From NCBI GenBank assembly GCA_027492875.1, contig JAPUDV010000076.1, forward strand, positions 1-64,000: a stretch of 64,000 bases of DNA, given 5' to 3'. The stretch comes from Candidatus Competibacteraceae bacterium. GTDB taxonomy: Bacteria; Pseudomonadota; Gammaproteobacteria; Competibacterales; Competibacteraceae. A program made the translations under genes and the position numbers. A model generated the notes under the pieces. It worked only from the letters and a program-made list of their open reading frames with translations. It had not been told where the DNA came from and did not search any database. Below are positions 206 to 16,157 of this stretch, piece after piece (the stretch's first letter is position 1; each line of letters starts with the position of its first letter).

Positions 206-3200
206 GTGGCATCCAACTACAAGGCGATCTGCGAGGAGAACCAGCGGCGCTACGGCACCGACATCGGCCGCATCGGCCCGATGCTGCTCGCCGACCGCTA
301 CGACGACCGGACGCACTTCATCTTCGAGCTGCTCCAAAACGCGGAAGACGCCCTCGGTCGGCGCGATGACTCGACCGGGCCGCGCAAGGTCACGTTCGAA
401 CTGGCCCCGACCCGGCTGTCGGTCTCCCACTTCGGCAGGCCGTTCGACGAGGCCGACGTACGCGGCGTGTGCGGCATCGCTGAAAGCACAAAGGACGAGT
501 TCTCGATTGGCCGGTTCGGCATCGGCTTCAAGTCGGTCTACACGTTTACCGACCGTCCGGAGATTCACTCCGGCGACGAGGATTTCGCCATCGAAGACTA
601 TGTGCAGCCGAAACGAGCTGATCGCACAGAACGTAGGGCGAGTGAAACGCAGATCGTCTTGCCCCTAAAATCGAACGACGACACCGCGCAGGAGGAGATC
701 ACTGGGGGCTTCCGGCACTTGGGTCCCCGCGCGCTGCTGTTCTTGCGGAACATCGAAGAGATCAACTGGAGCGTCGAAGGGGGTGCGTCAGGGTTCTACC
801 TGCGCAACAGCCCTGAAGCGTTTGGCGACAACGTCCATCACATCGCCGTAATCGGTCAAGAAACCGGCAAACCGGAGGTCGATCAGAACTGGCTGGTGTT
901 CCACCGCGACGTGTTCTCAGCCACGCAGGAAAAAGTCGGCTGCGTGGAAGTTGCCTTCTCGCTGGTCGCGGTCAAGGATGCGCCGGGCCGTTGGTCGGTG
1001 CAGCCCGTGGCTGCGTCGCCGCTGGTGGTGTTCTTCCCGACGGTGGTGCCGACCAATCTTGGCTTTCTCGTGCAGGGGCCATATCGCACGACGCCCAGCC
1101 GCGACAACATCCCGCGCGGCGAGCCGTGGAATCAGCATCTGGTCAAGGAGACGTCCAGCCTACTGGTGGAAGCGATGCGCTGGATGCGCGACAACGCGAT
1201 GCTGGACACGTCCGCCTTGCGCTGCTTGCCGCTCGGCCGCGAAAAGTTTTCCGAAGAGGCTATGTTCGCACCCATCTTCGAGGCCGTCCGGCAGGCGCTA
1301 TTGAACGAGCCGCTGTTGCCGCGCTTCGATGGAGGCTTTGTCGCGGCCTCGCAAGCGAAATTGGCGCGCACGCAGGAGTTGCGGGAACTGTTCAGTCCCG
1401 AGCAGATCGAGATGCTGTTCGGCTCCAAGGCATCGGCGTGGCTGACGGGCGACATCACCCAGGACAGAGAGCCAGAAATTCGCACCTACCTGATGCAGGA
1501 GCTTGGTATCACCGAAGTGACGTCAGCGACGTTGGTTCCGCGTCTGACCAAGGCGTTTCTCGAAGCCCAATCCGACGAGTGGATGCTTCGACTGTACGAG
1601 TTCCTGAGCGATCAAGAGGCCGCTTTGCGCCGCCACCTCGACACGATTCCGCTGATTCGCCTCGACGATGGAACCCACGTCGTCGCGCGTGAGAATGGGG
1701 CGGCAAAGGCTTTCCTGCCAAGCACCATCAAGACCGGTTTCCCGACGATACGCCGTGCAGTATGCGAAACGACCGATGCGAGGGGCTTCCTCATTTCGCT
1801 CGGCATCACCGAACCTGATCCAGTCGATGATGTGGTCTGGAACCTGCTGCCGAAATACCCGCGAGACGAAATCGATGTGGACGACGACGCCTACGCTGCC
1901 GACATCAAGCGCATCCGTGTAGCATTCAGCACCGACTCGAAGACGCAACGGGAAAAGCTCCTCACGGCGCTGCGCCAGACTTCTTTCGTGAGGGTCGTCG
2001 ATACCGGCGACGGCAAGGGCTGCGTCGCCAAACCTGGCGACATCTACATCGCCACGGATCGCTTGAGGCAGCTCTTTGCCGGTGTTCCTGATGTCCTCAT
2101 CGTCGATGACGGTTACGCCTGTCTGCGTGGCGAAGAGATACGCGAATTGCTGGAGGCGTGTGGTGCATTGCGTTATCCCCGCCCCGTGGAAGCACCAAAT
2201 GCCCTCACGCGGGACGAGCGCCACGAACTCCGGCGGCAAACAGGCTACGCAGAGACGTCCGGTTTCAACGACCGGATCGTCGACTGGCTGCTTCAAGGCT
2301 TCGACGCCTTGATCGAACTGCTGCCCAAGCTCTCTTCCGAGCAGCGTGCCGAACGTGCCCGTCTGATCTGGGAAAGCCTCGGCGATCTGGAGGAGCGTCG
2401 CGGGCGTGGCATCTTCGATGGTTCGTATAGCTGGTCGCACTACGGCGAACGTAAGACGCCACCTTTTCCTGCGGCCTTCCTGCGCCATCTCAACCAGGCT
2501 GCTTGGGTGCCTGACGTCACTGGTGATCTGGTGCCGCCGGGCCTTGTAGTGTTCGACAAGCTCGGCTGGAAACCCAATCCTTTTCTGCTGACCAAGATCG
2601 CCTTCAAGCCGCCGATCATCGACCAGCTGGCCAAAGAGGCGGGTATCGACCCAGCGGCCCTCGATTTTCTGCGAAAGCACGGCATCACCACGGAGGCTGA
2701 ACTGAAGTCTCGCCTCGGCATTCCTGATGCATCGCCCGAGGCTGATCCCGCACCCAGCACGACTCCCGACGAGGAGCCAGAAACCGCAGGTGAATCCAGC
2801 GGAGACGTATATGGCGACGCGCACGATCTGTACGGCGACGACATGCCGGACATTCCTCCCGGTACGCCTGACCCGGATGGCGGCGACGGCGCGACAGGTG
2901 GCGCAGGGCGCAGCGGTCAGGGGGGAACTGGCACTGGGACGCCACGCGGTGGCGGTCAGGGCAACGGTGGGGCACACGGTGGCTCTGGCGGCCACACCGG
3001 CGGCGGCAAAGGTAGCGGAACCGGAACCGGAACCGGAACCGGAACCGGTGGAGGTCAGGGAAAACGGACACCCGGCTCGGCTGGTGGAAGACCGTTCATT
3101 TCCTACCTTGGCGCTCATCCCGACGACGAGGAACCCGATCCCGATGGTCTCGATCAGGCAACACGGATGAAGATCGAGGATCAGGCCATCACCCTGATCA

Positions 3201-3526
3201 TTTCGCTCGAACCAGGACTGAAACGCACTCCCGACGGCAACCCTGGTTTCGACCTCTTCGAAGCCAACGGCGGCGGCCAGCAAGTTCGATGGGTCGAGGT
3301 CAAATCGATGACGGGCAGTCTGGAAAACCGGCCCGTAGGTCTTTCCCGCACGCAATTCGACTATGCCCGCGCGAAGGGCGATGCGTATTGGCTGTACGTG
3401 GTCGAGCACGCGACCGACCCAGAAAAGGCGCGGGTGCTCAGGATTCAGAACCCCGTCGCCCACGCGCGGACGTTCACGTTCGACAGTGGTTGGAGCCAGA
3501 TTGCCCGAACAGAGCCACCGGACTGA
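206..3526 (+). CDS. Sacsin-type GHKL ATPase with C-terminal NO VEIN (DUF3883) nuclease-like domain
   Basis: Large protein of 1106 residues. The N-terminal 150 residues carry the GHKL/HSP90-type ATP-binding signature: an N-box (FELLQNAEDAL, about residue 36) and a glycine lid (GRFGIGFKSVY, about residue 100), as in sacsin-like proteins. A long middle region has no recognised domain. A Gly/Thr-rich linker follows (about residues 890-955), encoded partly by a six-base tandem repeat near 3017-3048. The last 110 residues resemble the NO VEIN C-terminal domain, whose fold is PD-(D/E)XK-like; the candidate active site is the acidic FDLFE followed by WVEVKS. The GTG start at 206 is chosen because AAGGAG lies 5 bases before it. 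This architecture is common in bacterial defence islands. Role in defence is inferred; ATPase plus nuclease architecture is the visible part. Confidence 0.8.
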   Translation: MASNYKAICEENQRRYGTDIGRIGPMLLADRYDDRTHFIFELLQNAEDALGRRDDSTGPRKVTFELAPTRLSVSHFGRPFDEADVRGVCGIAESTKDEFSIGRFGIGFKSVYTFTDRPEIHSGDEDFAIEDYVQPKRADRTERRASETQIVLPLKSNDDTAQEEITGGFRHLGPRALLFLRNIEEINWSVEGGASGFYLRNSPEAFGDNVHHIAVIGQETGKPEVDQNWLVFHRDVFSATQEKVGCVEVAFSLVAVKDAPGRWSVQPVAASPLVVFFPTVVPTNLGFLVQGPYRTTPSRDNIPRGEPWNQHLVKETSSLLVEAMRWMRDNAMLDTSALRCLPLGREKFSEEAMFAPIFEAVRQALLNEPLLPRFDGGFVAASQAKLARTQELRELFSPEQIEMLFGSKASAWLTGDITQDREPEIRTYLMQELGITEVTSATLVPRLTKAFLEAQSDEWMLRLYEFLSDQEAALRRHLDTIPLIRLDDGTHVVARENGAAKAFLPSTIKTGFPTIRRAVCETTDARGFLISLGITEPDPVDDVVWNLLPKYPRDEIDVDDDAYAADIKRIRVAFSTDSKTQREKLLTALRQTSFVRVVDTGDGKGCVAKPGDIYIATDRLRQLFAGVPDVLIVDDGYACLRGEEIRELLEACGALRYPRPVEAPNALTRDERHELRRQTGYAETSGFNDRIVDWLLQGFDALIELLPKLSSEQRAERARLIWESLGDLEERRGRGIFDGSYSWSHYGERKTPPFPAAFLRHLNQAAWVPDVTGDLVPPGLVVFDKLGWKPNPFLLTKIAFKPPIIDQLAKEAGIDPAALDFLRKHGITTEAELKSRLGIPDASPEADPAPSTTPDEEPETAGESSGDVYGDAHDLYGDDMPDIPPGTPDPDGGDGATGGAGRSGQGGTGTGTPRGGGQGNGGAHGGSGGHTGGGKGSGTGTGTGTGTGGGQGKRTPGSAGGRPFISYLGAHPDDEEPDPDGLDQATRMKIEDQAITLIISLEPGLKRTPDGNPGFDLFEANGGGQQVRWVEVKSMTGSLENRPVGLSRTQFDYARAKGDAYWLYVVEHATDPEKARVLRIQNPVAHARTFTFDSGWSQIARTEPPD

Positions 3527-5229: not shown

Positions 5230-5730
5230 GGTGGTCCTATTTTTTTGCCGTTGCCGCCCACAAGTGGCGGCTGTGTTCCGAAAACACGACGCTTAAGCAG
5301 TTTACCACTCCGATGATCGCGGACCCGTGTCGCCGTCCGATTCCCGTCGCGCGACTTGACCGCTTCCCGACGCGCTGCCATAGTGAAATGGCTCTCAATA
5401 GGTTTCCTCGCACCTATCGAAAAAAACGAGGGCGGGTGGCTCGGTCCGTTAAATCGACGAGCTCAAGTTGGTTATCCCATCCAACAGAAAAAAATCGGCG
5501 TAGCGGTCGGATCTACGCAAAAAACCGACCATGGGTGCCGCTCGCTCGGCGGCCATATCAACGCAAGGAGGCGCATCCGGGGTTAAGGTGGGAAACCCGG
5601 TAAAATCCGCCACTGGAGGCCGTCATCTGAAATCCCGAGCCAAGGCCGATGCCCAAGGGCATCGATCCGAGGGAGAACGGAGACGTCCAATCGCCGGCTA
5701 GACCGGTCGCGCGCAGTACAGAGTTTTCAT
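5230..5730. other. Intergenic region with unassigned GC-rich hairpins
   Basis: About 500 bases between the divergent genes at 5229 and 5809. ORFs here lack ribosome binding sites or homology-like content. The part from about 5560 to 5720 is rich in short self-complementary segments, for example GATGCCC/GGGCATC at about 5648-5664, and could be a structured RNA or relic DNA. I could not match it to a known family. Confidence 0.3.
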
Positions 5731-5787
5731 CCCAACTGGGGACCGCCGTATCCCCAGTCTGGGGGCGTGGTGTGTCCCCTTTTTTCT
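5731..5787 (+). promoter_or_regulatory. Structured leader copy 1 (radC-motif-like RNA)
   Basis: The outer stem pairs GGGGAC (5738-5743) with GTCCCC (5774-5779). The inner hairpin pairs CCCCA with TGGGG (5752-5764). The conserved GCGTGG lies in the 3' internal loop. A T-tract (5780-5785) follows at once, then the ribosome binding site of the gene at 5809. Confidence 0.65.
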
Positions 5788-5808
5788 TTTGAAAAAGGAG
5801 ACATCGCC

Positions 5809-6396
5809 ATGTTGTATCGTGCCCTTCTGTTGTTCCTTGGACTCGTCCTCGGACAGGTCCAACGGTATCCCTTGCGGACTCTCGGTGCCCTCCAGGTGCG
5901 GGTGGTTCGTTATTCATTAATGATGGTCACCGCCCTCAAGCCGCTCGTCTGCCTTCCGTGGCGGGCCTGGCGGGTGATCGACGGTCCAACGGCCCGCGCC
6001 TTCACGCTGGTGATGGGGCTGATCGTGCTGACCAATCTGCTGGCCAGCAGCAGTGCCCTGGCAGGCTGGGCGACGCTGTTCATCGTCGGTGCATCCCGTG
6101 GTTTAACGGGTCCGCTCCGCCGTGGGCATCCGACCGCTTGGCGTTGGCAATCCGCCACGCCGGCCGCTACCCCAGTCCCAGCGCCGTTCGACGCGGCCGC
6201 CTACGCCGCCACGTTGGCGCCGTTCTCCGACCCGGAGCTACGGCGCCAGGCGCGCGACATCACCCAGGCGTTGCGCGGTGGCGATCCATCCTTGACGGAA
6301 GAAGATCGCTACATCCGCGTCCAGCAGCGGCGGGTGATCTACGAGACGCTGGACGCCCGCCGGGCGGCCCAGGGTGGATCAGCGCGTCGACCATAG
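5809..6396 (+). CDS. Small membrane protein of the mobile-element module
   Basis: 195 residues from the ATG at 5809, which follows AAGGAG at optimal spacing; an earlier in-frame ATG at 5767 lies inside the structured leader and is rejected. Two hydrophobic stretches are visible (about residues 3-16 and 65-82), suggesting an inner-membrane protein, followed by a soluble tail of about 100 residues with the segment FSDPELRRQARDITQALRGG. No family was recognised. The gene is the first of the leader-controlled units and its 3' end overlaps the convergent gene at 6379 by 18 bases. Confidence 0.65.
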   Translation: MLYRALLLFLGLVLGQVQRYPLRTLGALQVRVVRYSLMMVTALKPLVCLPWRAWRVIDGPTARAFTLVMGLIVLTNLLASSSALAGWATLFIVGASRGLTGPLRRGHPTAWRWQSATPAATPVPAPFDAAAYAATLAPFSDPELRRQARDITQALRGGDPSLTEEDRYIRVQQRRVIYETLDARRAAQGGSARRP

Positions 6397-6816
6397 CCGC
6401 TGGAGGGCCCGCCAAATCCCGCCAAGTACCTCCATCGGAGGTTCGACGGGACGCGGCGGGCGGTCGGCGGCGGGTAAGTCGAGAACCCACTGCATCGCTT
6501 GGTGCTGCCTTGCACGGCGCTCCGCCAGCGGTCGCGGTGGAAAACCGTGCAGGGGATAAGCGACGAACTGCAAGTCGTAGATCTCCTGCACGAGGGCGCT
6601 GTCGGTTCGTTGCTCGGGCGTCAAGGCGTTGTACTCGAACACGATCACCTTGGCGATGGCATTCTCGATGTCCTCGCTCGTGCGCAAATCGTCCAACTGG
6701 ATGCCGCGTCGCGCAAAGCGGGGTCCCAGATCTTCCCGTGCTTTCCGGGTCCATCGGAACTGCTCCGGGCGGCCCGGCGGGAAGAGGAAGTCGTTCGGGG
6801 TGAGCCGCGCATCCAT
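6379..6816 (-). CDS. Hypothetical protein, member 1 of a local four-gene paralogue family
   Basis: 145 residues from the ATG at 6816, preceded by AGGAG; the longer frame to 6912 has no ribosome binding site. The N-terminal 50 residues match the pattern shared by the reverse-strand genes at 6891, 7212 and 7805: a short aromatic strand, an (F/S)xWT or RFT motif, a basic helix, then (G/K)PRFAxxGI or RKRFAxFGI and a second helix. Here the core is FRWTRKAREDLGPRFARRGI. The remaining 90 residues are unrelated to the paralogues. Function unknown; the small helical domain might bind nucleic acid, which is only inference. Confidence 0.6.
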   Translation of the reverse strand: MDARLTPNDFLFPPGRPEQFRWTRKAREDLGPRFARRGIQLDDLRTSEDIENAIAKVIVFEYNALTPEQRTDSALVQEIYDLQFVAYPLHGFPPRPLAERRARQHQAMQWVLDLPAADRPPRPVEPPMEVLGGIWRALQRLWSTR

Positions 6817-8213: not shown

Positions 8214-8271
8214 ACCACCCCCACGGGGACGACTTCGTCCCTCTGGGGGCGTGGTGCGTCCCCTTTTTTTG
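8214..8271 (+). promoter_or_regulatory. Structured leader copy 3, upstream of radC
   Basis: The outer stem pairs GGGGACG (8225-8231) with CGTCCCC (8257-8263) and is followed by seven T (8264-8270). GGCGTGG sits on the 3' side of the internal loop. GAGGAGG and the radC ATG follow within 20 bases. Confidence 0.7.
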
Positions 8272-8284
8272 TTGAGGAGGCACC

Positions 8285-8761
8285 ATGGATCTGTACGTCC
8301 GAGAAGCAACCGGCAACTACCGTGTCGCGCGCCCCCGGGAAGTCCTCGACAGCGCCCGCGACTGTGTGGGCCAAGTGTTCGGCAAAGGCCGGCACATTGA
8401 AAAGCCCGCTGTGGCGGCGGGATTGTTCGCCGGCAAGCTGGCTGGCCTGGAGTCCGAGCGGTTTGCGGTGCTGTTTTTGAACCAACAACATCGTGTCCTC
8501 GCTTACGAGGAGCTGTTTTTCGGCACCATCGACGCCAGCGCGGTTTACCCGCGCGAGGTGGTGAAACGAGCATTGCATCACAATGCGGCGGCGGTGATCC
8601 TCGGACACAACCATCCGTCCGGGAACACCGTCGCGAGTGAGGGCGATATCCGCATCACGCGAACGTTGGCGTCCGCACTTGCGCTGATGGACATCACGGT
8701 GTTGGACCACATCATCATCGGTGATGGTCACACATCGATGAAAGAAAACGGGTTGTATTGA
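8285..8761 (+). CDS. radC: RadC-like JAB-domain protein
   Basis: 158 residues starting at the ATG behind GAGGAGG. Residues 35-158 form the RadC/JAB1 metalloprotease-like fold. The metal-binding signature is present: HNHPSG (about residue 117) followed by SEGDIRITRTLASAL, with an acidic residue and FLNQQHRV upstream. It lacks the N-terminal helix-hairpin-helix region of chromosomal RadC, which is usual for copies carried by plasmids and integrative elements. The cellular role of RadC is not established; mobile-element copies lie among recombination and anti-restriction genes, as here. Confidence 0.9.
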   Translation: MDLYVREATGNYRVARPREVLDSARDCVGQVFGKGRHIEKPAVAAGLFAGKLAGLESERFAVLFLNQQHRVLAYEELFFGTIDASAVYPREVVKRALHHNAAAVILGHNHPSGNTVASEGDIRITRTLASALALMDITVLDHIIIGDGHTSMKENGLY

Positions 8762-8793: not shown

Positions 8794-8848
8794 ACCCCCA
8801 GGGGGGACGCATCCGTCCCCCCTGGGGCGTGGTGCGTCCCCTTTTTTC
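8794..8848 (+). promoter_or_regulatory. Structured leader copy 4
   Basis: The clearest copy. The outer stem pairs GGGGACGCA (8803-8811) with TGCGTCCCC (8833-8841) with no mismatch, the inner hairpin pairs CCCC with GGGG, and six T (8842-8847) follow. A second, exclusive hairpin GGGGACG/CGTCCCC could form within the 5' half. Confidence 0.7.
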
Positions 8849-8865
8849 GTTGAGGAGGCACCCTG

Positions 8866-10764: not shown

Positions 10765-10821
10765 GCAACCCCTTGAGGGACGTCCGCGTCCCCCTGGGGG
10801 CCTGGGCGTCTCTTTTTTTTT
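10765..10821 (+). promoter_or_regulatory. Structured leader copy 6
   Basis: GGGACG (10777-10782) pairs with CGTCTC (10807-10812) through one G-U pair. The inner hairpin pairs CCCC with GGGG around 10790-10799. A run of T (10813-10820) follows. Confidence 0.6.
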
Positions 10822-10833
10822 GGAGAGAGGCCC

Positions 10834-11238
10834 ATGGAGATCTCGTTGTCGCTGTTCGACGACCCGCCGGCGGTCGCGTCCACCCGGACCCGACCCGCCG
10901 CGCCCGTCGCCAAGACCCCAACCCGTCCCCATGCCCATCGCCAGTACGAGGATTGGCAGTGTGATTTAAACCAATTAGCCGATGCCTGGGAAGCACTGCA
11001 TGTCGGGTTCCTCCGGCGTCACCTGAAGCTGCTCGCCTCGGTGCATACCGAGCGGGCCGAGCGGGACGACATCCTGGCGTGGCTGGAAGCGCCGGTCACG
11101 ACCGGGCCACCGGCGGCGTTGAGCGCCCAGGCCTGCCTGGCGATTTACGATGGCCGTATCGACCTGCTGGCGTTTCAGCGGGCGGTGCGGCTCTTGAGTC
11201 AACGTGTGGCGGTGCAACAACGCCGCGCGGCGGCCTGA
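10834..11238 (+). CDS. Hypothetical helical protein
   Basis: 134 residues. A Pro/Ala/Thr-rich N-terminal tail of about 35 residues precedes an all-helical domain (DWQCDLNQLADAWEALHVG, FLRRHLKLLASVHTERAERDD, FQRAVRLLSQRVAVQQRR). GGAGAG lies before the ATG at 10834. No family recognised. It sits alone between two structured leaders, so it is a separate unit of the module. Confidence 0.6.
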   Translation: MEISLSLFDDPPAVASTRTRPAAPVAKTPTRPHAHRQYEDWQCDLNQLADAWEALHVGFLRRHLKLLASVHTERAERDDILAWLEAPVTTGPPAALSAQACLAIYDGRIDLLAFQRAVRLLSQRVAVQQRRAAA

Positions 11239-11334: not shown

Positions 11335-12300
11335 ATGACCATGACGACGCAACAGCAGACCGAAATTCAGGTCAACCGAGCCTTTGGTATCAAAGCCCCG
11401 GACACGATCCGGGTGCCGGGATTCGATTCACCGGGGCCATTCACGCCACCGCTCAAGGCGGACTATCAGTTCCGGTCAGGACTGCTGTCGGACCTGTTGT
11501 GCTGGCATCGCGGTATCGCCGCCGGCCAGCATCATGACGGCCTGTGGCTGACCGGTCCCATGGGCGCCGGGAAGTCCAGTCTGATCGCCCAAACCGCCGC
11601 CCGGCTGAACCTGAATCTGATTCAGGTCAACGGCCGTCGGCGACTGGAAATCGCCGACCTGCTGGGCCACCTCACCGCCATCGGCGGGGACGTGTTGTTC
11701 CAGGATGGCCCGCTGACCACCGCCGCCCGGCTGGGGGCCTGGTTCCTGTTCAACGAGGCGGACCTGGTGGAACCCGGCGAGTTGGCCGGGCTCAACACGG
11801 TCCTGGACGGCGGACCGCTGGTCCTCGCCGACAACGGCGGCGAGGTCGTCACCCCGGCCCCCGGTTTTGGGATCGTCTGCACCGCCAATACGGCGGGGCA
11901 AGCCGATGCCACCGGGCTGTACGCCGGCGTGCAGCGGATGAACGGCGCGCTCCTCGATCGCTTCTGGGTGGTCGAAGTGGACTATCCGGAACCGGACCAG
12001 GAGGCGGACCTCATCGCCCAGGCCGTCCCGGCCCTGCCGACCGAGATCGTCCACAAGATGATCGAGGTGGCCGGCGAGGTCCGCCGCCTGTTCGTCGGTC
12101 AGCGCGACGACGGACCGGCGATCGAGCTGACCTTGTCCACTCGGACCTTGGTGCGGTGGGCCTACCTCACCCTCCAGTTCAAGGGGGCGCCCCAACCGCT
12201 CGATCACGCCCTGAAACGGGCGCTGACCGGCCGGGCCGAACCGGAAACGGCCGAGGCCATCCACGGCATCGTCCAGCGCCTCTGCGGGGGGACGCCCTAA
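11335..12300 (+). CDS. CobS/MoxR-like AAA+ ATPase
   Basis: 321 residues. The Walker A motif is GPMGAGKSS (about residue 75), preceded by the QFRSGLLSDLLCWHRGIAAGQ helix. Walker B lies in AWFLFNEADLVEPGEL, and sensor 1 in GFGIVCTANTAG. The arginine-containing segment MNGALLDRFWVVEVDYP follows, as in CobS and MoxR proteins. This ATPase type works with VWA proteins as a chaperone or metal-insertion pair; here the DUF3150 and VWA partners lie downstream in the same order seen in other plasmids and integrative elements. TAATG overlap couples it to the next gene. An ATG at 11341 is an alternative start. Confidence 0.85.
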   Translation: MTMTTQQQTEIQVNRAFGIKAPDTIRVPGFDSPGPFTPPLKADYQFRSGLLSDLLCWHRGIAAGQHHDGLWLTGPMGAGKSSLIAQTAARLNLNLIQVNGRRRLEIADLLGHLTAIGGDVLFQDGPLTTAARLGAWFLFNEADLVEPGELAGLNTVLDGGPLVLADNGGEVVTPAPGFGIVCTANTAGQADATGLYAGVQRMNGALLDRFWVVEVDYPEPDQEADLIAQAVPALPTEIVHKMIEVAGEVRRLFVGQRDDGPAIELTLSTRTLVRWAYLTLQFKGAPQPLDHALKRALTGRAEPETAEAIHGIVQRLCGGTP

Positions 12301-13046
12301 TGGCGGCCCCGGCGATCACGGTGCATCTGTACCGGATGGGGAATCCGGACGGCACGTCCAAGGACTGGGCCGTGCCGACGGTGCTCGATCCTCAGCGGTT
12401 GACGGTCTATTTCGGCCGCACCGGTTCGACCTTGCGTCAGGCCGAGACCCCGGCCGGACGGTGCCGGGACGGCATCCCGATCCGGGAAGCCGAAGACCGC
12501 ATCCGGGAGAAAGCGGCCAAGGGCTACCAAGCCCTGGGCACCTTTCGGTTGGCGACCAACCGCCGGGATTTGACGCCGGAATCCGCGTGCCAGGATGACG
12601 CGGGGCACGGGCAGGACGCGTCGGACACCCCGAACGCGGTCCCCGCGCTGTACTGGCGCTTGCACGCCCCCGCCACGGTGACGGGGACGCGGTTCGAGAC
12701 CGCCGTCCAGGACACGAACGAGCGGTTGGCCACGGTGGGGTGGAGCCTACCGGGGAGTCGGCCGGACGATGCGGGCAACAGGCTGTGGTTGCGCGCCATC
12801 GGCCCGCCGGCATCGTCCCATGGCCTGGTGCCGCTGACGGACGATCACCGGCCGTTGATCGCCTTCTTCCTGTTGCTGGCGCGACAAGAGGTGGGGTTGA
12901 CGGTGGCGGATGAGCAGGGCCAGGTGATCACCGCCTGGCCCGCCGAATTGCCGATCGAGGCGGAAGTTCTGGAAACCCTGGGATTGAAGCCCAAAGACCT
13001 GAATCAGTGGCTCGCCAGCACGAACGGCGACGATTGGTTCTTCTGA
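12300..13046 (+). CDS. WGR-like domain protein with an acidic-aromatic tail
   Basis: 248 residues. Residues 1-80 resemble a WGR domain: a HLYRMGNPDGTSKDWAV strand, LTVYFGRTGST for the central strands, then AEDRIREKAAKGYQALG, the helix and KGY end typical of WGR. WGR domains bind nucleic acid or accompany ADP-ribosyl transferases; no transferase is present. The rest contains a second mixed domain. The protein ends NGDDWFF, almost the same as the C terminus of the gene at 13150. The start overlaps the upstream ATPase stop codon by one base. Confidence 0.6.
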   Translation: MAAPAITVHLYRMGNPDGTSKDWAVPTVLDPQRLTVYFGRTGSTLRQAETPAGRCRDGIPIREAEDRIREKAAKGYQALGTFRLATNRRDLTPESACQDDAGHGQDASDTPNAVPALYWRLHAPATVTGTRFETAVQDTNERLATVGWSLPGSRPDDAGNRLWLRAIGPPASSHGLVPLTDDHRPLIAFFLLLARQEVGLTVADEQGQVITAWPAELPIEAEVLETLGLKPKDLNQWLASTNGDDWFF

Positions 13047-13061
13047 GGGGTTCCACGTTGT

Positions 13062-13127
13062 TCCACGTCCGGGGCGGACGCCGACGTTCGCCCCGAGGGG
13101 GTGCGCGTGGCGTCCGCCTTTTCTTTT
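13062..13127 (+). promoter_or_regulatory. Structured leader copy 8
   Basis: GGCGGACGCC (13073-13082) pairs perfectly with GGCGTCCGCC (13109-13118), a fully compensated outer stem. CCCCGAGGGG forms the inner hairpin. TTTTCTTTT (13119-13127) follows. Confidence 0.7.
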
Positions 13128-13149
13128 GAATTGAGAAGGAGAAGGCGCC

Positions 13150-14358
13150 ATGCCGACACCAGCGATGCAACCGCAATCCCTGGATGGGCTGTCCGATCAG
13201 TTGGTGTTTGTGAATCTCGACCTCACCTGCTGGTCGGGCAAGAAGACCCTCACGCCCGAAGACCTCGGGTTGGACCGGACCCAGCTTCCCCCGGAGACCC
13301 TGGTCTCCCTGGGGGAGAAACAACTCATCGACCCGGAGGCGCTGCGGACTTTCACCTCGATCCGCAGCGCGGCCCGCCGCCGGTGTCTGGCGGTGGGGAC
13401 GCGCTTCCTGGGTGGCTATGCCGTGCCGGTGGCGAAAGCGCCGGCGCTGCTGGCCGAACTGGACGCACTCGGCCAGCGCTATCAGGACGCCCGCGCGGCG
13501 TTCCTGGCCGGATACGACGACCAACTGGCCGCCTGGACCCAGCAACAGCCCCAAGAATGGCAAAAGCTGATCCGGGACGCGCTGGTTCCGGTGGAGTACG
13601 TCGGCGGCCGGCTGAGCTTCGCCGTCCAGGCCATGCGTTTCGCCGCGCCGGATCCGGCGGTGGTGACCCACGACGGGCTGAACCAGGCGCTGTCGAGCCT
13701 CGGCGACCAGGTGTTCCACGAGGTGGGGCAACTGGCGCGGGAGGCCCTGGAGCGATCCTTTCAGGGCAAGGACGCGGTCACCCGGCGGGCGCTCAGCCCG
13801 TTGGCGTCGATCCGCGACAAGCTGGACGGGCTGGCCTTTCTCGACCGCCGCTTTCGGGCGGTGGTCGGGGAAATCGACCGGCTGGTCTCCCAAGTGTCGG
13901 CCCAAGGGCCGATCGCCCACGGTGTGTTGGCGGCGCTGACCCAGTTCTTCAGCCTGGCGGCCCAGCCGGCCGGGCTGCGGACCTGGGCGGCGAACGCTTC
14001 GGTCTGGCAAGCCCCGCAAGCGTTCCTGGGGCTGCCCGACCCACCCGCCGCCACACCGGCGTCCAGCGTGGACCCGGCGGAAGCGGCCAAGAAACCCACG
14101 TTCATCCCGGCGCCCGAGCCGGCTTCGGCATCCACGGTGGACGCGGACGCTCCAGCGTCCATTGAGGATACCGAGAGCGACACGTCGACCCCGGCTCCCG
14201 CGCCCACGGTGGACGCGGAGGCCGATCCGCTGACCTTGCACTGGAAGCCGGTCGTGAAGGCCGTGGAGGAGGTCATGACCTCGGTCGAGGCATCGGCCGA
14301 GTCCACCGAGTCCACCCCGGCGCCGGCGCCGGCGACCGACGACGCCTGGTTCTTCTGA
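13150..14358 (+). CDS. DUF3150 family protein
   Basis: 402 residues. Residues 15-250 match the DUF3150 layout: LTPEDLGL, VSLGEKQLIDPEALRTF, then RCLAVGTRFLGGYAVP, and a long helical region. This family regularly sits between a CobS-like ATPase and a CobT-like VWA gene on plasmids and integrative elements, as here. The C-terminal 120 residues are Pro/Ala/Glu/Ser-rich and contain imperfect repeats around DA.AS.ED or PAPAPTVDA. The protein ends DDAWFF, matching the tail of the gene at 12300. GAGAAGGAGAA precedes the ATG. Confidence 0.85.
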   Translation: MPTPAMQPQSLDGLSDQLVFVNLDLTCWSGKKTLTPEDLGLDRTQLPPETLVSLGEKQLIDPEALRTFTSIRSAARRRCLAVGTRFLGGYAVPVAKAPALLAELDALGQRYQDARAAFLAGYDDQLAAWTQQQPQEWQKLIRDALVPVEYVGGRLSFAVQAMRFAAPDPAVVTHDGLNQALSSLGDQVFHEVGQLAREALERSFQGKDAVTRRALSPLASIRDKLDGLAFLDRRFRAVVGEIDRLVSQVSAQGPIAHGVLAALTQFFSLAAQPAGLRTWAANASVWQAPQAFLGLPDPPAATPASSVDPAEAAKKPTFIPAPEPASASTVDADAPASIEDTESDTSTPAPAPTVDAEADPLTLHWKPVVKAVEEVMTSVEASAESTESTPAPAPATDDAWFF

Positions 14359-14377: not shown

Positions 14378-14430
14378 AGCCCTCTGGGGACGCATCGTTC
14401 CCCCAGGGGGCGCGGTGTGTCTCCTTTATT
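14378..14430 (+). promoter_or_regulatory. Structured leader copy 9
   Basis: GGGGACGCA (14386-14394) pairs with TGTGTCTCC (14416-14424) through two G-U pairs. The inner hairpin pairs CCCC with GGGG. TTTATTTTT and GGAGGT follow. Confidence 0.65.
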
Positions 14431-14444
14431 TTTGGAGGTACGCC

Positions 14445-16157
14445 ATGAAAAAGAACCCGCTACTGGGCGCCTTGCCGATCATCGCCACCCTGCTGGGCCA
14501 GAAGCTCGGCGTGAAGGTGGTGATCGGCGGCCGCCAGGCCGCCACCGACGGCCAGGTGATTGTTCTGCCGTCGCTCCCGGCGGACGGCGATCCGAGCCTG
14601 GCGGTGTTGGCCAACGGCTACATCGATCACGAAGCCGCCCATATCCGTTACACGGACTTCTCGATCCCCAAGCCCGCCGGCTTCATCGGCCTGATCACGA
14701 ATATCCTGGAAGATGTTCGCATCGAGCGGCGATTGGGAGAACGCTTTCCCGGCAGCCGCCACAACCTGGCGGCCCTGATCGATCGGCTGGAGTCCCGGCA
14801 ATCGCTCGTGCCGCCGGCGGAGGCGTCCGTCGCCCAACAGGTGAGCGCCGCGTTGTCGGCGCTGCTCCGCGCCCGGCTGCTGGGTCAGACGGGCCTGGCC
14901 GTGGCGGCCGATACCCTGGAGGCCCGGATCGACGGGCTACTCCCGCCGGGCCTGGTCACCCAGCTGCTGGCCCTGGGGTTCGAGGTGCGAAAGGCCGCCT
15001 CGACCGCCGAGGTCATCGGCCTGGCCCGGCGCATCGTGGCCCTGCTGGAGGAAGAAGCGAATTCTCCGGCGGATACCGGCCCACAGGGCGGCGCCGATCC
15101 ACAGGGCGGTGCCGATCCACAGGGCGGTGCCGATCCACAGGGCGGTGCCGACCCACAAGGCGGCGCCGATCCACAGGAGGGTGCCGACCCACAAGGCGCT
15201 ATCGATCCACAGGGGGGTGCCGGCTCACAAAGCGGTACCGGTCCACAGGGCGGTGTCGGAGCCGCGCCCAACGATCCTCGTCGTGCGGCCTTGACCGAGC
15301 TACTGACCGCTCGGGGCGACGAAGCCGACGGGATCGATGTCGGGACGCGAACGGCCCAGTGGCTCGATCAGGCACGAGAAATGGCGGATCGGCCGGTCAC
15401 GATGTCCCGCCTGGACCCCATGCCGGCCAACGGCGACCCCCAGAAGGCGGTGGCCGACGCGCGCGCCGCCACGGCCTCGTTGCGCCGCCGCCTGGGCGTG
15501 CTGGTGGAGTCCCGCCAGCGCGGCGCGGACTGGCGGAGCCGCCGGGGCCGGCGGCTGGACCCGGCCGATCTGTACCGGCCGGCGGTGGGGCAATCGATCC
15601 GTTTCGTCCGCCAGGACGAACGGCCGGCGCCCAACACCGCCCTCGCGCTGCTGCTGGATCGCAGCGGCTCGATGAGTGGACGACTGGCCCTGGCGGGGCA
15701 GGCCGTGCTGTCCATCCTGCTCGCCCTGGACACCCTCCCGGGCGTGGCGAGCTGGGCGGCGGCGTTCCCGGGGTCGGCGGATGACCGCATCGTGCCGCTC
15801 AAGGGCTTCGAGGAGCGGGCGACCCGGATCGCCGGGCGGTTCACCGGATTGTACGCCACGGGCGGCACGCCCTTGGCCAACGCCCTGTGGCGGACCGGTC
15901 ACGAACTGCTCCAGCGGCCGGAACCCCGCCGCTTGGTCGTGGTGGCCACCGATGGCCAACCCGACAATCTCGATGGCGTCAGCGACATCCTCGCCCGCTG
16001 TCGGGCCAGCGGCATCGAAGTCGTCGGGCTCGGGATCGGCCAAAGCCTGGACCACGTTCAGGCGGTCTTCGGAGTCCGGCACGCCGTCTCGATCGCCACG
16101 ATCGAGGCGCTGGCCCCGGCGCTGTTCGCGGTATTGGAACGGCAACTCCTGGCGTAG
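14445..16157 (+). CDS. CobT-like VWA-domain protein
   Basis: 570 residues from the ATG at 14445 behind GGAGGT; the frame opens earlier at 14415 inside the leader and that start is rejected. The N-terminal part has IDHEAAHIRYTDF, like the zinc-protease-like motif of CobT proteins, then NILEDVRIERRLGERFPG. A low-complexity hinge of GADPQG repeats follows. The C-terminal VWA domain has an intact metal-ion site: DRSGSMSG, a threonine in YATGGTPL, and ATDGQPDN. Together with the CobS-like ATPase and DUF3150 protein it should form an ATPase/VWA machine; its substrate on mobile elements is unknown. Confidence 0.88.
   Translation: MKKNPLLGALPIIATLLGQKLGVKVVIGGRQAATDGQVIVLPSLPADGDPSLAVLANGYIDHEAAHIRYTDFSIPKPAGFIGLITNILEDVRIERRLGERFPGSRHNLAALIDRLESRQSLVPPAEASVAQQVSAALSALLRARLLGQTGLAVAADTLEARIDGLLPPGLVTQLLALGFEVRKAASTAEVIGLARRIVALLEEEANSPADTGPQGGADPQGGADPQGGADPQGGADPQGGADPQEGADPQGAIDPQGGAGSQSGTGPQGGVGAAPNDPRRAALTELLTARGDEADGIDVGTRTAQWLDQAREMADRPVTMSRLDPMPANGDPQKAVADARAATASLRRRLGVLVESRQRGADWRSRRGRRLDPADLYRPAVGQSIRFVRQDERPAPNTALALLLDRSGSMSGRLALAGQAVLSILLALDTLPGVASWAAAFPGSADDRIVPLKGFEERATRIAGRFTGLYATGGTPLANALWRTGHELLQRPEPRRLVVVATDGQPDNLDGVSDILARCRASGIEVVGLGIGQSLDHVQAVFGVRHAVSIATIEALAPALFAVLERQLLA
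15076..15260 (+). repeat. Tandem repeat coding for GADPQG units
   Basis: About ten copies of an 18-base unit encoding Gly-Ala-Asp-Pro-Gln-Gly lie in frame inside the VWA gene. The central copies are nearly identical at DNA level and the outer copies diverge. This is a flexible hinge and a likely site of copy-number variation. Confidence 0.85.

Follow-up and report, generated by a model that had tools for sequence, protein, structure and literature searches.

Why should two unrelated proteins, encoded side by side in one bacterium, finish in almost the same peptide? The question is raised by a gene module in a 64,000-nucleotide stretch of DNA (hereafter the window) from a Candidatus Competibacteraceae bacterium, which covers positions 1–64,000 of a 66.3-kb contig (JAPUDV010000076.1) in a 3.83-Mb genome. 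On the + strand, the module runs from the gene of a CobS/CbbQ-type (MoxR) AAA+ ATPase (11,335–12,300), through that of a 248-residue WGR-type protein, here called X, which overlaps the ATPase stop codon (12,300–13,046), and that of a 402-residue DUF3150 protein (13,150–14,358), to the gene of a CobT-like VWA protein with a MIDAS motif (14,445–16,157). X ends in NGDDWFF (tail DDWFF, 13,029–13,043, + strand) and DUF3150 in ATDDAWFF (tail DDAWFF, 14,338–14,355, + strand). An earlier note on this DNA had drawn attention to these ends, and both were confirmed to lie in frame at the exact C-termini of two otherwise unrelated proteins, as DUF3150 matched PF11348 (1.6e-80) and X matched no Pfam family. 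The same note placed a disordered stretch ahead of each tail. This holds for DUF3150, whose residues 288–402 (14,011–14,355, + strand) are predicted to form a disordered tether (pLDDT about 40). In X the stretch is short, predicted helix running as far as residue 240 of the 248. In addition, the tail is wider than first noted, since the lambda-type exonuclease of relatives is a third carrier; exonuclease, X and DUF3150 are referred to below as the trio.

The W-F-F-stop pattern occurs at 11 places in the 3.83-Mb genome. Four of these read TGG in place of the stop, five lie in stop-to-stop frames of 11–75 codons, and two are the window genes; X and DUF3150 are the only credible reading frames in the whole genome that end in WFF. 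By chance, about 0.06 such ends would be expected per 3500 proteins, a rough figure based on typical residue frequencies.

Relatives of the module were found in pALVIN02 of Allochromatium vinosum, the SXT-like element R997, IncC and IncA plasmids and many gammaproteobacterial and Geobacter-type genomes, where it often lies downstream of ssb, bet and a lambda-type (YqaJ) exonuclease gene. We gathered 116 loci (numbered L; genomes are numbered G) and searched them with iterated hidden Markov models (HMMs). One set of 80 loci represented the best 80 of 173 relatives and consisted about half of near-identical SXT-type copies; clustering was therefore used, and the 113 DUF3150 loci fell into 30 clusters at 60% identity. 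Seventeen short loci, mostly from G genomes, were removed, 14 or so being replaced by longer stretches from the same sites and L001/L009 by the window. The cluster counts and co-variation tests left out one DUF3150 (L021) and, for L057 and L063, the exonuclease frame with the best score, each of these two loci having a second exonuclease frame with a normal tail; three X proteins (L121, L125 and L126) and the exonuclease from the genome of L119 were added by hand.

Conservation of the tail, on which the proposal in the earlier note depended, was found in nearly all homologues. When a strict tail was defined as an aromatic last residue with at least two aromatics among the last three, it was present in 15/16 clusters of X, 13/18 of the exonuclease and 22/30 of DUF3150 (28/30 with an aromatic last residue). 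Among the other proteins of these loci, it was detected in 0/28 clusters of AAA+, 0/30 of VWA, 0/7 of RadC, 0/15 of SSB and 1/14 of Bet. Counted by locus without clustering, the tail was carried by 78/86 exonucleases, 82/83 X proteins, 3/3 IncC-type X proteins and 103/114 DUF3150 proteins, and F401 of DUF3150 is invariant in 31 aligned sequences. To set these numbers against a background, 298 annotated coding sequences were scored from four elements (50 kb of a 135.8-kb IncC plasmid, 100 of the 102.7 kb of pTHAF38_a, all of pALVIN02, and R997 minus the cut traN). The strict tail occurred in 17 of them, comprising 12/12 trio members and 5/286 others (Fisher p = 8e-18); the five were an IncC Bet, a LexA-family protein, an IHF-beta, a 91-residue IncC protein (ELEDFYF) and RepB. 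The tail is also tied to the module. Exonuclease homologues whose loci have no module gene (76 viral and 14 genomic) had 39 distinct ends, of which none was aromatic (0/90), where module absence for the genomic loci, each about 4 kb, rests on the lack of a DUF3150 match in those genomes. By comparison, all six exonucleases with the module in the same locus or genome were tailed (SSYF, SLFW, SCFW, QFAW, EWFY and EWFF; two of them, L293 and L294, duplicate loci already in the set). Furthermore, the tail is kept at a distance: some 12 kb separate the exonuclease (FDFEWFF) of genome G089 from DUF3150 (LDWFF), yet their ends match, and the displaced WGR protein of L121, which adjoins ssb, still ends in SEWFF.

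The tails do not merely persist but change together. Within one locus the ends of the trio match, as in SLYF/SLYF/SLYF (L118), WFF/WFF (the window), AWFY/DWFY (L017), SFYF/NYYF/SFYF (R997), DFWF/DHWF/DYWF (Methylomonas), QFAW/CVYW/EVIW (L125) and LLLF/IMMF (L101). When partners were shuffled between clusters and the BLOSUM similarity of aromatic-ended tails was scored, the match was significant for exonuclease–DUF3150 (n = 14, p = 5e-5, the floor of 20,000 shuffles), X–DUF3150 (n = 15, p = 5e-5) and exonuclease–X (n = 10, p = 1e-4). It remained so when the aromatic-end condition was dropped (n = 18, p = 5e-5; n = 16, p = 5e-5; and n = 12, p = 3e-4, respectively), while the ends of AAA+, VWA and Bet did not follow that of DUF3150 in this way in permutation by cluster. 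Since the clusters are not fully independent, the distance between DUF3150 bodies was controlled for in a partial Mantel test; the partial correlation was 0.53 for X–DUF3150 (p = 2e-4) and a moderate 0.29 for exonuclease–DUF3150 (p = 0.016). Of 58 residues identical between tails of one locus, 31 were encoded by the same codon, so the similarity, and with it selection, lies at the level of protein, and a DNA-level signal was ruled out. In one Methylomonas genome with several copies of the module (L020, L022, L064 and L080) all tails are of one flavour; the tails thus do not separate closely related copies.

Other aromatic ends were noted around the module. A small protein of IncC/IncA plasmids, its gene lying some 4 kb beyond that of VWA in the downstream direction (44,337–44,612 in L326; 15,613–15,936 in L107) ends in ELEDFYF or DLEDFYF and is possibly a further tagged protein. 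Bet of the IncC/IncA-type plasmids L006, L105 and L107 ends in YY (GSYY, DHYY and GCYY), unlike Bet of other clusters. In L124, a PD-(D/E)XK nuclease (PF12705; 1350–2297), unrelated but with an aromatic tail (EAFW), and a 354-residue Pfam-less protein ending in TSFW (2381–3445) adjoin a DUF3150 that ends in NALGF. A VWA-adjoining protein with a weak match to an AP-endonuclease TIM barrel ends in RPFFF/RPVFF (3982–4956 in L125; 11,344–12,258 in L126), which does not match the W-ending tails of its own locus.

What could hold these ends in step? Tails of unrelated proteins that change jointly from element to element lend good, though indirect, support to the earlier suggestion of a common partner, and the tails probably serve as a C-terminal docking tag for one such partner encoded by the element. 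In such a tag, acidic or polar residues would precede two or three aromatic or hydrophobic ones at a free C-terminus, in most cases at the end of a flexible tether. It would label the members of a recombination complex, namely the WGR-type protein, DUF3150 and, where present, the 5'–3' exonuclease, and each would dock at the same kind of site on the partner. The tail is retained in places that yielded no exonuclease or Bet (the window, five Geobacter-type loci, and the window's own genome, G000, in which the exonuclease had no match) and in loci that yielded no X (e.g. L100, L101 and L122). An AAA+ gene was present in 13/13 records checked and a VWA gene in 12/13; DUF3150 was always present because almost every locus was located by its DUF3150 gene. 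The candidates for the partner are therefore AAA+, VWA or DUF3150 itself.

We favor the AAA+/VWA machine because the NorQD system offers a model. For NorQD, it has been proposed that acidic client residues bind at the NorD MIDAS (PMC9976466), and NorD touches the postS1 loop of the NorQ ring with its hydrophobic C-terminus (PMC9976466; PMC13036017). By analogy, the partner would be the CobS-like AAA+ hexamer with its CobT-like VWA adaptor, gathering and remodeling its clients at DNA ends, and contact could be made either by an acidic residue filling the VWA MIDAS metal site or by the aromatics in six equivalent subunits of the ring. That this machine is the partner has about an even chance of being right, and we place the account as a whole, a docking tag shared by a recombination complex with AAA+/VWA as its most likely site, at the same middling level. 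An extension, which we offer tentatively and hold to be doubtful, is an address code in which each family of mobile elements would mark all its recombination proteins with a peptide of its own and have a receptor ring to match, so that they assemble as one AAA+-driven machine, distinct from the host SSB network and from the machines of other elements. The single flavor shared by the Methylomonas copies sets a limit to such a code.

Several results weigh against this account. On the side of the tag, the strict tail is missing from 5/18 exonuclease clusters, exceptional exonuclease ends including PRSFQ, VDFC and YKYL, and weak DUF3150 ends (TGFGI, NALGF, TLELVL and VVEF) occur despite the presence of AAA+. 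The acidity of the tails is modest and variable, with a mean net acidic count at residues -12 to -4 of 1.93 for DUF3150, 1.62 for X and 1.18 for the exonuclease, compared with 2.40 for SSB, 1.00 for AAA+ and -0.57 for VWA. The partial correlation between exonuclease and X was not significant (r = 0.25, p = 0.097, n = 12). On the side of the partner, a sliding-window partial correlation against the DUF3150 tail revealed no significant site in AAA+ (n = 27, p = 0.54) or VWA (n = 28, p = 0.30, the top window lying near the first MIDAS aspartate). In phage AAA+/VWA pairs without DUF3150, tailed neighbors made up 9/857 open reading frames versus 5/1185 in control phage loci, no clear excess, and AAA+/VWA alone may thus not be the receptor. 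In a complete Vibrio furnissii plasmid with no VWA match, DUF3150 keeps NNEWFF while the exonuclease ends in PRSFQ. A loss of the tail that follows the absence of AAA+ was considered for L004 and L120 and dropped, as AAA+ lies elsewhere on the same record or genome.

The null covariation scan and the phage pairs leave DUF3150 as a candidate receptor, and the strongest alternative is that the body of DUF3150 (or X) receives the tails, which would then drive self-assembly of a DUF3150-centered scaffold on which AAA+/VWA act in some other way. The constant presence of DUF3150 (with the sampling noted above), the lack of tailed neighbors in phages without it and one partly degraded, VWA-less plasmid locus that retains the DUF3150 tail are consistent with this idea. 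AlphaFold leaves the DUF3150 tail off its body, at the low pLDDT of the tether, although a single-chain model would miss a contact made in trans. We regard a DUF3150 or X receptor as rather unlikely, and it ranks below the AAA+/VWA machine.

A host receptor fares worse. The earlier note had named an SSB-binding pocket as a possible site, and the tails might imitate the C-terminal peptide of SSB (SSB-Ct), or else one of the clamp-binding kind, with host proteins such as SSB-binding enzymes or the sliding clamp as receptors. An acidic stretch ahead of a final aromatic residue would recall SSB-Ct, one viral DUF3150 ends in GYDDDEEEF, and the LLLF, IFLF and SLMF tails look like clamp motifs. However, a Pro-Phe end is missing from all the listed trio tails, the SSBs encoded in these loci retain DDIPF- or EPDF-type ends that do not track the element's tail, and flavor follows the element: the SXT-type NSFYF/QNYYF/SSFYF are unchanged across many host genera, which would not be expected of a host receptor. 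For these reasons SSB-binding pockets and host receptors in general are disfavored, and mimicry of this kind is improbable. C-terminal hydrophobic peptides are also common protease or unfoldase signals, and the tails, at the extreme C-terminus, could in principle set the amounts of these proteins; element-specific co-variation would be unexpected for a host protease, though, and no protease domain was found in the module AAA+ and VWA proteins by Pfam scan, so that a degradation or unfolding signal is slightly less probable still. Finally, coincidence, shared ancestry of lineages or a DNA repeat at gene ends, to which the 85% DNA identity of the window's two tails over 27 bases and the incomplete independence of clusters would lend themselves, is very improbable in light of the differing codons across loci, the permutation and partial Mantel tests and the concentration of the strict tail in the trio.

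The window ATPase, a candidate receptor, is tail-less (it ends in CGGTP) and matched PF07728 (8.3e-16) and CbbQ_C (PF08406, 1.4e-14). The VWA protein, the other candidate, is also tail-less (QLLA) and matched CobT (PF06213, 5.2e-10) and VWA (PF00092, 2.7e-6); the DxSxS, T and D positions of its MIDAS are invariant in our alignment of the family (A6). A CbbQ/NorQ-type AAA+ gene with a MIDAS-bearing VWA gene nearby makes the two a MoxR AAA+/VWA pair. True cobaltochelatase CobS and CobT were rejected as identities, with both scores far under the NCBIfam equivalog cut-offs (83.3 bits against 558.55 for TIGR01650, CobS; 22.7 bits against 759.05 for TIGR01651). Within the VWA gene, a tandem 18-bp repeat of about 10 units (15,061–15,276) encodes a (GADPQG)n linker that joins the CobT-like and VWA parts.

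DUF3150 scored 270.6 bits with PF11348 (gathering cut-off 24.9). Its AlphaFold model is ordered up to about residue 287, the folded part spanning about 11–287, and structure searches gave no convincing solved relative (best Z 7.8, a helical bundle). Searches for the X and DUF3150 families in PADLOC, PHROGs and NCBIfam returned no match. For X, a sequence search found no solved relative, and the window copy has no Pfam match, WGR included; among its relatives, Pfam WGR was detected in 1/35 members of alignment A8 (3.4e-9), in the L125 protein occupying the X slot (1.6e-11) and in the displaced 129-residue protein of L121 (2.1e-4). The predicted N-terminal 95 residues of X nevertheless resemble a WGR fold: 2ra8 ranked first (Z 8.5 over 72 residues, root-mean-square deviation 2.5) and WGR-containing PARP1/2/3 chains took ranks 2–20 (Z 5.2–6.4), ahead of the next unrelated fold at Z 4.3. 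We give this assignment moderate weight, as it rests on a predicted model and the Foldseek E-values are weak. Since PARP WGR domains bind DNA breaks according to structure titles, X may be a binder of DNA ends or nicks.

The gene order AAA+, X, DUF3150, VWA is the same in the window, R997 and pALVIN02. A RadC-like protein (8285–8761, + strand; RadC HMM match), tail-less with a KENGLY end, is encoded in the module neighborhood of the window, and radC adjoins the module in SXT-type R997 and pALVIN02. No HMM match to ssb, bet or exo was found in the window. Kinship of the module and a nearby TraU match, weak and below the cut-off, suggest that the window copy is part of a mobile element. Leaders at 8218–8287, 8796–8865, 10,769–10,838 and 14,379–14,448 share a GC-rich hairpin (GGGGACG...CGTCCCC), then a T-run and a GAGG-type ribosome site directly ahead of the start codon of a gene; a looser relative was possibly seen by eye at 13,050–13,148. 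The repeat matched no Rfam family, and the related locus L017 has similar leaders.

A full-text literature search for DUF3150 returned no paper. No earlier description of the tail was found by title or abstract in the literature searched; subscription papers were mostly beyond that search, so one may exist. The AAA+, DUF3150 and VWA genes reside in SXT/R391-type integrative and conjugative elements and IncA/C plasmids, which are major carriers of resistance genes. The shared tail links these genes to the Red-like exonuclease through a removable three-residue handle, which makes the role of the CobS/CobT-like pair in these elements directly testable. A confirmed tag would also exemplify unrelated proteins that hold one short C-terminal motif in step.

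Among known systems, the Red-like recombination system of SXT/R391 and IncA/C elements (ssb-bet-exo) shares the gene neighborhood. According to the available parts of the published work, SXT bet and exo (s065 and s066) promote the formation of hybrid integrative and conjugative elements (PMC2786100) and SXT-Exo is an alkaline exonuclease (PMC3118119); those parts mention neither the tail nor the AAA+/VWA genes. The window differs in having the AAA+/X/DUF3150/VWA core, with bet and exo not found. Phage CobS/CobT-like MoxR-vWA pairs belong to the same AAA+ and VWA families (phrog_249 and phrog_1576), and one such phage pair is described in PMC7824862, but no DUF3150 was detected by HMM in the phage loci L215–L292. 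Scanning viral contigs with the DUF3150 profile (A1) gave no relative; the AAA+ scan brought in L214, which carries AAA+, DUF3150 (5562–6713) and VWA and whose hyperacidic DUF3150 end, cited above, is nearer to an SSB-like end.

Compared with NorQD and CbbQO, the likeness lies in the pairing of the window ATPase (AAA_5 plus CbbQ_C) with a MIDAS-bearing VWA protein. No common client tail is described for either system in the available parts of PMC9976466 and PMC13036017. The clients of NorQD and CbbQO are a metalloenzyme or Rubisco, whereas here the neighbors are an exonuclease, a WGR protein and DUF3150.

SSB-Ct is a shared docking peptide in DNA repair. In the Methylomonas-type loci L027, L030, L077, L080 and L085, SSB itself ends in DDIPFF rather than DDIPF, and the other tails there end in WF. 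The module tails resemble SSB-Ct in their aromatic C-terminus and flexible tether and perhaps in their acidic or polar residues. They differ in that, besides lacking Pro-Phe, they are carried by three unrelated families instead of one, are specific to the element and change together within it.

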